Shown here one piece after another: positions 9,148-13,089 of a DNA stretch of 64,000 nucleotides. The stretch comes from Corynebacterium poyangense. GTDB taxonomy: Bacteria > Actinomycetota > Actinomycetes > Mycobacteriales > Mycobacteriaceae. The notes beneath the pieces are model-generated. The model was not told where the DNA came from. It ran no database searches and saw nothing but the letters and a program-made list of their open reading frames with translations. Position numbers and translations under genes: made by a program. Numbering within the stretch: the first letter of the stretch is position 1; every line of letters begins with the position of its first letter. Where the stretch lies: NCBI RefSeq assembly GCF_014522205.1, contig NZ_CP046884.1:1736001-1800000 (forward strand). Reading direction: 5' to 3'.

Positions 9148-9237
9148 CGCTCTCCTGCCCCACCGTCGGGAACTCGGTAGGGTTAAGACCAGGGAGCATC
9201 AGCAGCTAATCACAACATGCGCACAGAGGAGCACGCG

Positions 9238-10926
9238 GTGAGCACTCGTCCTTTTCTTGAAGTCGAATCAAAGTTTGCAGTCGAGGAAACTATCGACATA
9301 CCGGATCTAACCAGCATCCAACACGTCGATCATCTCAAAGAGACTGTTTCACACAGCTTATCCGCTATCTATTATGACACTGCAGATCTGCGCTTAACTC
9401 GAGCAAAGATTACTCTTCGCCGGCGTAGCGGGGGTAAAGACGACGGCTGGCATATCAAGTTTCCTTCAGCCGAAGGACGCCTAGAAATTCACGCTGAACT
9501 AGGTGAGCCAGTAGACGGGGTGTACCAGGTGCCTCAAGAAATTAAAGAACAAGTGCTTTCCCTTATTCGGCGCGAACCTCTCACACCAATCGCTCAAGTA
9601 GATAATGAAAGAACTGAATACCTCCTCGCTGATTCAGCAGACCACGCTATCGCTGAATTCTGTGACGATAAAGTGACTGCTTTTTCTTTTCTTCCTGGGG
9701 GAAAGCAACGCTCCTGGCGTGAATGGGAAATCGAACTCAGCGATGCCCAAGCTAGCGATATTGATAATCAAGCTCTCTTGCGCTCAGCTACCGCTCTATT
9801 TATTGGTGCTGGGGCAAAGGCTTCACATAGCCCCTCTAAATTGCTCTTCGCACTTGGCGAAAGCATCAATAATGTGCAACCAGCACACGCATCGCGTCAG
9901 CTTGATCAGTCCTCCCCAGCAGCCGGAGTTATTCAGGCCTTGAGCGCAAATCGTGACAAGCTCATTTCCTATGATCCCAAGGTCCGTAGAGACGAATGGG
10001 ATTCCATTCACCAGATGAGAGTTGCTACCAGAGAGCTGCGAAGTCACCTTCAAACATTTGAAGGAATTTTGGTGGGAGAACGCATCCACTATTTAGAAGA
10101 AGAACTCAAGCTTCTCGCTAGTTTATTGGGCGTAGCACGAGATGCCGAGGTAGTAGAGAAACGTTTCCATACCCTGTTAGAGCAGGAGGACTCTGATGCT
10201 ATCGACGACAATGTTAGACGCCATGTTCGCGAAGATATGTCCCGAGAGTATCGACGCGCCCATCGCCGAGTGGTCGCCGTTCTCAATTCTGATCGCTATC
10301 TAGACATGCTAGATGCCTTAGATGAGCTCGTGCACTGTCCTCCTTTAGCGGAGGACTCTCCGGCCTCATCAGCAGAAGAATCACCAGGTGATTCCTCTGA
10401 AAACTCGGAAGAAGTAGGCGATCACCAAGAGGACACTCTCACCGCGGAAGAGACTCTACTGCTTCACCTCGATAAGGCCTATCGCAAGCTCCGTCGCCGG
10501 CATGAGTTGGTGACCGCAACCCGAAACGACCATTCAATTCCGCTCAAGGAAAGAGAAGTTCATCTTCATGACATGCGGAAAGCGGCGAAACGGCTGCGTT
10601 ACTCTGCTGAGGCTGTCGGCGCGGCCACTGGCCTAAAAACCAAGAAATTAAGCCAAGCGTGCAAGCGTATGCAGTCTCTTCTCGGCGATTTCCAAGATGC
10701 AGTTACTGCGCGGGAAATTCTGCTGAAGAAAGCACATCGCGCTCGAAAGAAAGGGGAAGACACCTTTGGATATGGTCTGTTATATCAGCGGGAAAGATAT
10801 AACGGCCTTGAGGCGCTGAAAGACTATGACAAGGTGGCTGAGGATATTCGCCAGGCGCATCAAAAGTTGTCTAGGAACACGAAGAAGAAGAGGAAGAAGC
10901 AAACAAGAAAAGGCGGGAAAAAGTAG
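9238..10926 (+). CDS. CYTH and CHAD domain protein (polyphosphate-related)
   Basis: About 562 residues. The N-terminal CYTH (triphosphate tunnel) fold covers roughly residues 1-200, beginning EVESKFAV and with a Lys/Arg-rich strand ITLRRRSGGKDDGWHIKFP. The CHAD domain follows, with its two signature helices HQMRVATRELRSHLQTF and LHDMRKAAKRLRYSAEA. These are interrupted by an acidic Ser/Glu-rich insert of about 35 residues, and the protein ends in a Lys-rich tail. CHAD domains bind polyphosphate and often locate to granules; CYTH domains hydrolyse inorganic or organic triphosphates. The GTG at 9238 is chosen because AGAGGAG lies 6 nt before it. An in-frame ATG at 9217 would place that site inside the gene. 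Confidence 0.85.
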   Translation: MSTRPFLEVESKFAVEETIDIPDLTSIQHVDHLKETVSHSLSAIYYDTADLRLTRAKITLRRRSGGKDDGWHIKFPSAEGRLEIHAELGEPVDGVYQVPQEIKEQVLSLIRREPLTPIAQVDNERTEYLLADSADHAIAEFCDDKVTAFSFLPGGKQRSWREWEIELSDAQASDIDNQALLRSATALFIGAGAKASHSPSKLLFALGESINNVQPAHASRQLDQSSPAAGVIQALSANRDKLISYDPKVRRDEWDSIHQMRVATRELRSHLQTFEGILVGERIHYLEEELKLLASLLGVARDAEVVEKRFHTLLEQEDSDAIDDNVRRHVREDMSREYRRAHRRVVAVLNSDRYLDMLDALDELVHCPPLAEDSPASSAEESPGDSSENSEEVGDHQEDTLTAEETLLLHLDKAYRKLRRRHELVTATRNDHSIPLKEREVHLHDMRKAAKRLRYSAEAVGAATGLKTKKLSQACKRMQSLLGDFQDAVTAREILLKKAHRARKKGEDTFGYGLLYQRERYNGLEALKDYDKVAEDIRQAHQKLSRNTKKKRKKQTRKGGKK

Positions 10927-11305: not shown

Positions 11306-11367
11306 TATTAAAGTAAAAACAGTTCAATACCAGCGTTTGCCCGCTGCCCCAATGATGAGGAGTCACC

Positions 11368-12675
11368 ATGCCCCAGTGGAATAACACTGAATTCCAGGGT
11401 GAAGACCTACCCTGCAAGCTCGCGGCTACCCACCATGAGATTTTTCATCAACGACCTCAGCTCGTAGCCCAAGCTCCAGGGTCGTGGCCCCTTATTGGAG
11501 AACACACCGACTATTTCGGAGGAATCGCACTCTATGGTTTAGTCAACCGGAATCTCTATCTGGCGTTGACACCCAACAAGAAGTCAACGATCGATCTCCG
11601 AATTCTTGACTCAGAGAGTTTCGAGGCATGCCTAGAACGCTCGGGTTGTGTGGAACTGAATGATTTTTTGTCGAAGACCTCGTCAGAAGAAAAATCTCCA
11701 CACACCTATGCACAGAATTCCAGCGATGTGGTGAGGCTACTGGCCGCCACCACATCTGCATTGATGCAACGTCAGCTCTTAAGTCGCCATCACCTTGGGT
11801 GGGACATCACCGTCGTCACTAATATCCCGAGGGATATTGGACTAGGTGAAGAAACCGCACTACAAGCAGCTTTTGCCCTGGCGTTGTTATCACATAATCA
11901 TCAGGTTGATGTACCAACCCGAGCCCGGTTGAGCGAACTGGGGGCCCAAGCCTCTGAACTCATCCACCCAGGTTTAGCCACCAAATCCCGACTCACCGCC
12001 GTGCTTCGCGGCGCCGATTCCGGATTCTGCGCTGTCGATCATGCTGACGGTGCAGTGACCCGAAGCCCTGGCATCGATTCCTCCCGATATCACACCCTCG
12101 GTATCTATCCTCACGCGCATCACACCCAAGCATCTGTCGTGGAGAACCAGGTCGATGCTCAGCAAATTGCCCATGACCTTGAGCAACGTAAAGCCTTGTG
12201 CGAAAATGCTGCTCACGGATTCGGCGTCGGTTTGTTGCGATTATTACCTCAAGCAACCACCCGCGTCCCGGAGTGGTTGCGCGCCTATCACCAAGTTCAC
12301 GATGATTCTTCTCAACCAGCAGTGAGCGACGCCGAGAAATGGCTGAACTTTTGGGAAGCAGAAATCCAGCGAGCCAAAGATATAACCAACGCCTTGCACT
12401 CACATCGCTACGCTGAAGTGTGGGCAGTGATAAACCAATCTCGGCACGATATAACCGCACACTATGGCCTCAATGGCCCCGAAGACGCCCTTTGTTCATT
12501 AGCACTTCAACAAGGAGCCCTATCTGCCCGCCCGCTTGTGGCCGGGATTCATTCTTCCGCAGTAGCGTTCGTGGAACGCAACCATAGCCAAGATTTTTGC
12601 ACCCACCTGCACAATGTAGGCATTCACACTACCGATTTGCCAGAGGGAAATCCGGCCAGAGTTATCCCTGTCTAG
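11368..12675 (+). CDS. Galactokinase-fold protein with lost catalytic motifs
   Basis: 435 residues, normal galactokinase length. The N-terminal signature is recognisable (PLIGEHTDYFGG near residues 41-52, the sugar-binding loop). The other GHMP-kinase motifs are not: the phosphate loop, normally PxGAGLSSSAA, reads IPRDIGLGEETAL (residues 153-165). The segment that normally carries the catalytic aspartate (GxxDQ) reads PGLATKSRLTAVL (near 201-213) with no Asp. The C-terminal Gly-rich motif reads AGIHSSAVAFV. By sequence it is unlikely to phosphorylate galactose. The frame is intact and the ribosome site is good (GAGGAG, 5 nt before ATG), so it appears to be kept as a protein rather than a decaying pseudogene. 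Confidence 0.8.
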   Translation: MPQWNNTEFQGEDLPCKLAATHHEIFHQRPQLVAQAPGSWPLIGEHTDYFGGIALYGLVNRNLYLALTPNKKSTIDLRILDSESFEACLERSGCVELNDFLSKTSSEEKSPHTYAQNSSDVVRLLAATTSALMQRQLLSRHHLGWDITVVTNIPRDIGLGEETALQAAFALALLSHNHQVDVPTRARLSELGAQASELIHPGLATKSRLTAVLRGADSGFCAVDHADGAVTRSPGIDSSRYHTLGIYPHAHHTQASVVENQVDAQQIAHDLEQRKALCENAAHGFGVGLLRLLPQATTRVPEWLRAYHQVHDDSSQPAVSDAEKWLNFWEAEIQRAKDITNALHSHRYAEVWAVINQSRHDITAHYGLNGPEDALCSLALQQGALSARPLVAGIHSSAVAFVERNHSQDFCTHLHNVGIHTTDLPEGNPARVIPV

Positions 12676-12679
12676 GGGC

Positions 12680-13089
<410 letters not shown>

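Follow-up and report, generated by a model that had tools for sequence, protein, structure and literature searches.

A galactokinase-like gene of Corynebacterium poyangense belongs to a family, widespread in the genus, that appears to have lost phosphate transfer

Yeast Gal3 acts with bound galactose and ATP. Homoserine kinase is a GHMP kinase that works without the catalytic Asp, and GHMP kinases lacking that residue keep the phosphate-loop Ser and the Gly-rich loop. Among corynebacterial relatives of kinases, the MviN pseudokinase domain is described as having a regulatory role (excerpt of PMC10166564), and ChrS is reported to be a regulatory pseudokinase (excerpt of PMC9491836). Here, we analyzed a gene that we call GKL (galactokinase-like pseudokinase), which lies in a stretch of 64,000 nucleotides (nt) of Corynebacterium poyangense DNA (NZ_CP046884.1, positions 1,736,001 to 1,800,000; "the window"). 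GKL is homologous to galactokinase (GalK), and sequence comparisons indicate that it is a real GalK-derived pseudokinase family that is under selection among close orthologues. A previous reading of the letters alone (the sequence-only reading) had proposed a galactokinase-fold protein that kept GEHTDY, had lost its catalytic motifs, and was repurposed. On re-reading of the sequence, the coordinates, start, and frame of the 435-codon open reading frame were exact, and the GAGGAG ahead of its ATG bears out the good ribosome-binding site and intact frame which that reading had described.

The GalK ancestry of GKL was apparent from several comparisons. The Pfam GalKase_gal_bdg domain (PF10509) was found at residues 21 to 69 (E value, 1.1e-11; 44.5 bits; cutoff, 23.1), and GHMP_kinases_N gave a match below its own cutoff (E value, 0.0014). 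Five NCBIfam galactokinase models scored 36.9 to 52.4 bits against cutoffs of 226.65 to 509; TIGR00131, a curated equivalog, gave 42 bits against 226.65, short of a galactokinase assignment. The top Protein Data Bank sequence match was galactokinase 6tep (3.2e-11), and a profile of 13 GKL orthologues, including the window protein, matched a profile of 13 intact GalKs with an E value of 2.5e-33. In a tree, the 13 GKL rows formed one clade, which a stem of 1.95 changes per column separated from the 22 galactokinases included, and the window protein had one of the longest end branches. These comparisons favor a single origin of GKL from a galactokinase; because the stem branch is so long, the source GalK is not readable from the tree. 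The same genome carries an intact galactokinase with all motifs (L055, G000:C1:1502261-1503388), which groups (100/100) with two Corynebacterium GalKs. An AlphaFold2 model of GKL with 24 intact GalKs as the alignment reached a predicted local distance difference test (pLDDT) score of 76.5 and a predicted template modeling (pTM) score of 0.81, and its best matches among solved structures were galactokinases. Another match, 3v2u, is titled as a Gal80p-Gal3p complex with galactose. Since the input alignment was GalK, the model speaks for fold compatibility and is not an independent finding, and GKL is predicted to fold as a galactokinase. On both homology and fold, GKL falls within the GHMP/GalK superfamily.

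The profile alignment placed other residues where GalK has its catalytic motifs. GLSSSAA aligned to GLGEETA (residues 158 to 164), the Asp of GGLDQ aligned to Arg208 within ATKSRL, and GGGFGG aligned to VAGIHS (residues 391 to 396), so that the three losses noted in the sequence-only reading were all recovered. Two further losses were absent from that reading: the Arg of APGR is Ser39 in GKL, and the Tyr of QYxxRR (QYASRR) is Leu271. In galactokinases, these two residues contact galactose. The substitutions are common to corynebacterial orthologues and are not a single-genome effect. They were followed in 72 rows from 69 of the 205 GKL genomes (three genomes twice), a nonrandom set (30 best-scoring single-protein matches, the remainder being those with positions listed) in which weak-scoring, more eroded copies are underrepresented. 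Position 208 was never Asp (Arg in 68 rows, Pro in 2, Trp in 1, and Lys in 1), and Ser was absent from position 160 and present in 3 rows at position 161. At position 394, Phe was outside the eight commonest letters, which made up 68 of the 72 rows, and Gly was found in 3 rows at position 395 and in 6 at position 396. No row had Arg at position 39 or Tyr at position 271. GEHTDY is intact in the window protein and varies among orthologues, with E45 in 71 rows, D48 in 68, and H46 in 51 (Asn in 15). No conserved Asp and Ser loop was seen at other positions in these orthologues; the closest new invariant Asp to the lost catalytic one, Asp227, aligns to a Thr in GalK. Judged from these alignments, GKL is very unlikely to transfer phosphate in the way that GHMP kinases do.

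Purifying selection acts on GKL among close orthologues. Ratios of nonsynonymous to synonymous substitution rates (dN/dS; Nei-Gojobori) were computed for 300 pairs among 25 orthologues, and the 41 pairs with more than 70% identity, which come from few groups of close species, gave values of 0.046 to 0.283. The frames were open and full length in the rows read, and five residues were invariant (Arg214, Asp227, Pro294, Arg299, and Trp303; 72 of 72 rows), with Thr231 in 71. Mean column identity (13 rows each) also showed where constraint differs between GKL and GalK: it was lower in GKL at the phosphate loop (0.67 versus 0.87), the Gly loop (0.72 versus 0.84), and the GEHTDY region (0.84 versus 0.90) and higher in GKL at the catalytic-Asp segment (0.85 versus 0.64), the hairpin that follows it (0.82 versus 0.56), the RLLPxAxxRVxxW segment (0.84 versus 0.43 in its GalK counterpart), and the RQLLSR segment (0.79 versus 0.45), the overall values being 0.62 and 0.52; because the GKL alignment spans one genus and the GalK alignment several phyla, only the direction in each segment is usable.

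The stronger conservation of the segment that lost its Asp, together with the near-complete retention of Arg214, Asp227, and Thr231, raises the possibility that the old pocket is a new active site, in which these three residues plus Arg208 would carry out non-GHMP chemistry. We doubt this explanation: Arg214 and Asp227 persist in eroded members from which Arg208 and GEHxD are missing, the invariant residues may be structural, the compared alignments are unequal in breadth, and no known catalytic set was recognized in those residues. It is highly improbable that GKL has kept kinase activity by means of an unorthodox site, in the manner of homoserine kinase. The Glu and Asp of GEHTDY are kept in nearly all rows, and loss of the Asp alone is not fatal in all GHMP kinases, but in GKL the phosphate-loop Ser and the Gly-rich loop are lost as well.

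The distribution of GKL was assessed in 242 genomes of the genus. A single-protein search (E value, 1e-3) gave a match in 216, and a 20-sequence profile gave a strong match in 205, a weak match in 23, and no match in 14, the cut for a strong match resting on a gap in scores (best E values of ≤6.4e-57 versus ≥1.2e-36). True GalK is carried by 22 of the 23 weak-match genomes, and the weak matches there are probably that GalK. The glnA locus was read in 29 of the 37 genomes outside the GKL set; 27 of these had neither GKL nor its usual CYTH-CHAD neighbor, and the other two were G124 and G168. Outside the genus, which was sampled with 201 genomes of the family and 101 of the order (each sample including some nearer kin), no match above 93 bits was found; all nine out-of-genus loci read (L046 to L054) had GLSSS, the Asp-Gln pair, and GGGFGG. 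Likewise, no GKL orthologue was found among the 24 loci read from an 80-locus scan of named genomes, all of which had recognizable GalK motifs.

Galactokinase (TIGR00131; E value, 1e-40) was detected in 91 of the 205 GKL genomes and in 23 of the 37 others (P = 0.051 by Fisher's test, which takes no account of phylogeny), and GKL thus does not track galK. A gene acting in a galactose pathway would be expected to occur with galactokinase, yet 114 GKL genomes have no detectable galactokinase. These counts bear on the parallel with Gal3 drawn in the sequence-only reading, by which GKL would be a galactose sensor or a regulatory subunit for galactokinase. The derivation from GalK, the loss of catalytic motifs with GEHTDY kept, and the intact galK in the same genome are in keeping with such a role; nevertheless, with the nucleotide and Gly-rich loops lost, both sugar-site residues gone (the latter in all 72 rows), and the gene present in so many genomes lacking galactokinase, we consider it highly improbable. 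In a separate observation on these galactokinases, the TIGR00131 scores of the G191 and G192 proteins exceeded those found elsewhere in the genus by ~90 to 100 bits, possibly reflecting a different origin or misplaced contigs. The least probable account is that GKL is a decaying gene heading for loss, for although it diverges rapidly (identity between the window genome and G231 was 40% for GKL, 65% for CYTH-CHAD, and 92% for GlnA), has eroded copies beside a clade without the gene, and is represented in the window by a protein on one of the longest end branches, its frames are full length, it has acquired new invariant residues, and its dN/dS is well below 1 among close orthologues.

In the window, the gene order is glnA, a DUF2786 protein gene, CYTH-CHAD, GKL, rnpB, Nif3, a low-molecular-weight phosphatase gene, and SURF1. 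A CYTH(-CHAD) gene was upstream of GKL in 44 of the 46 GKL loci read, on the same strand in all 44, and within 1.03 kb in 43 of them (5.6 kb in L209). Genome wide, a CYTH-CHAD match was present in 202 of the 205 GKL genomes versus 2 of the 37 others; in one of these two (G168) the locus is broken off at a contig edge, and in the other (G124) it holds a weak GKL match of 101 bits. Because the catalytic parts are lost and yet most of the genomes examined in the genus carry the gene, usually with the same neighbor, GKL probably does another job. The explanation that we favor, and hold to be probable, is that GKL is a GalK-derived pseudoenzyme without phosphate transfer that acts as a ligand-binding regulator or scaffold, a role that we infer from the pattern of loss and retention. 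Repurposing as put forward in the sequence-only reading is thus upheld as far as the loss of phosphotransfer motifs across orthologues and the low dN/dS values go; its Gal3-like sensor is not, and a regulator is possible.

Under the favored explanation, GKL would have arisen once from a galactokinase and abandoned phosphate transfer, a small or anionic ligand would bind the altered pocket, with Arg208 and Arg214 at the former Asp site, and the RLLPxAxxRVxxW region would be presented to a protein partner. CHAD domains bind polyphosphate (excerpt of PMC6537752), and triphosphatases and polyphosphatases are among the CYTH proteins (excerpt of PMC8233210). The neighboring CYTH(-CHAD) protein, whose family includes proteins that handle triphosphate or polyphosphate, is a candidate partner. 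More speculatively, and in our view doubtfully, the dead site may have been rebuilt as a ligand site (Arg208, Arg214, and Asp227) linking the CYTH neighbor to a phosphorylated metabolite, triphosphate, or polyphosphate, which would make a bacterial metabolic sensor out of a sugar kinase. CHAD was considered as the constant part of the partner and rejected, as the neighbor is CYTH only in 5 of 44 loci; by eye, these lie on four separate branches of the GlnA tree.

Several observations weigh against the favored explanation. The structural model was guided by GalK sequences, and a single-sequence model was uninformative (pLDDT, 35.5; pTM, 0.25). The window protein, which is without a close relative, is in none of the 41 dN/dS pairs. 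GKL copies adjoining the clade that lost the gene lack even GEHxD: four such copies were read (L042 to L045), the gene was at the same locus in the three of their genomes checked (G226, G237, and G088), and the erosion looks like relaxation in that lineage. The link to the neighbor, above all to CHAD, is weak. CYTH-CHAD and GKL are 441 bp apart in the window, which is not a tight operon. Three of the 205 GKL genomes had no CHAD match, two of them read at the locus; in L202 and L206, from two related genomes, CYTH-CHAD is gone and GKL is still beside glnA. In the five CYTH-only loci (L145, L146, L195, L197, and L203), the neighbor has only 219 to 278 amino acids, with a CYTH match and no CHAD. 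When 74 loci were placed in a GlnA tree, the 27 sampled genomes that have neither gene formed one clade (100/99), and two GKL loci without the neighbor formed another; co-occurrence of GKL and CYTH-CHAD is therefore weak evidence, because it reflects a single joint loss of adjacent genes.

Table 1. Features of the GKL locus, in window coordinates
Feature	Position	Strand	Basis
CYTH-CHAD protein, conserved upstream neighbor of GKL, candidate partner	9217..10926	+	Locus comparison
Ribosome-binding-site-like GAGGAG	11357..11362	+	Direct sequence reading, ahead of ATG 11368
GKL, galactokinase-like putative pseudokinase, 435 amino acids	11368..12675	+	Pfam, NCBIfam, PDB, structure, profile alignment
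GEHTDY, residues 44-49, sugar-site motif still there	11497..11514	+	Pfam, profile alignment, orthologue rows
GLGEETAL, residues 158-165, where GLSSSAA phosphate loop is expected	11839..11862	+	Profile alignment, orthologue rows
Arg208, at catalytic Asp position	11989..11991	+	Profile alignment, orthologue rows
Arg214, 72/72 orthologue rows	12007..12009	+	Orthologue rows
Asp227 of D(Y/H)ADGxVT motif, 72/72 rows	12046..12048	+	Orthologue rows
RLLPxAxxRVxxW, residues 291-303, strongly conserved, new to GKL family	12238..12276	+	Column conservation, orthologue rows
VAGIHS, residues 391-396, where GGGFGG is expected	12538..12555	+	Profile alignment, orthologue rows
RNase P RNA gene (rnpB), convergent with GKL, 3 nt past its stop codon (context only)	12679..13086	-	

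A promoter scan covering sigma-70-type sites only found no consensus promoter. The end of the convergent rnpB and the GKL stop codon are separated by 3 nt. An rnpB terminator, if there is one here, would fall within the GKL gene. The 3-nt gap was also seen in L137; in the other eight loci scanned, it ranged from 27 nt to several kilobases.

Literature searches found no paper on a pseudoenzyme derived from a bacterial sugar kinase of the GHMP superfamily and, with guessed locus tags, none on the GKL gene. A "galactokinase" of Corynebacterium pseudotuberculosis was detected by mass spectrometry (excerpt of PMC4604328); it may be GKL or GalK, which are indistinguishable there, and was not counted. 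For Corynebacterium glutamicum, which may carry GKL, the excerpted text of PMC3962153 reports galactose use only with added pathway genes. An automatic "galactokinase" label at the GKL locus, if given, would be unfit for predicting galactose use. The family spans most of one genus and runs from copies with the sugar motif kept, through copies with it eroded, to complete loss, and because of that natural gradient the gain of a new role by a dead kinase could be tested residue by residue.

Compared with galactokinase (GalK/GALK1; PF10509, TIGR00131), GKL is without the phosphate loop, the catalytic Asp, the Gly-rich loop, and the sugar-site Arg and Tyr, forms a separate clade, and scores far below the NCBIfam cutoff. 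Whereas yeast Gal3p uses galactose and ATP and has Gal80 as its partner, GKL has lost the nucleotide site, and its distribution does not track that of galK. The MviN pseudokinase domain and ChrS are, like GKL, kinase relatives described as pseudokinases; their folds are protein-kinase-like and histidine-kinase, respectively, and are unrelated to GHMP.
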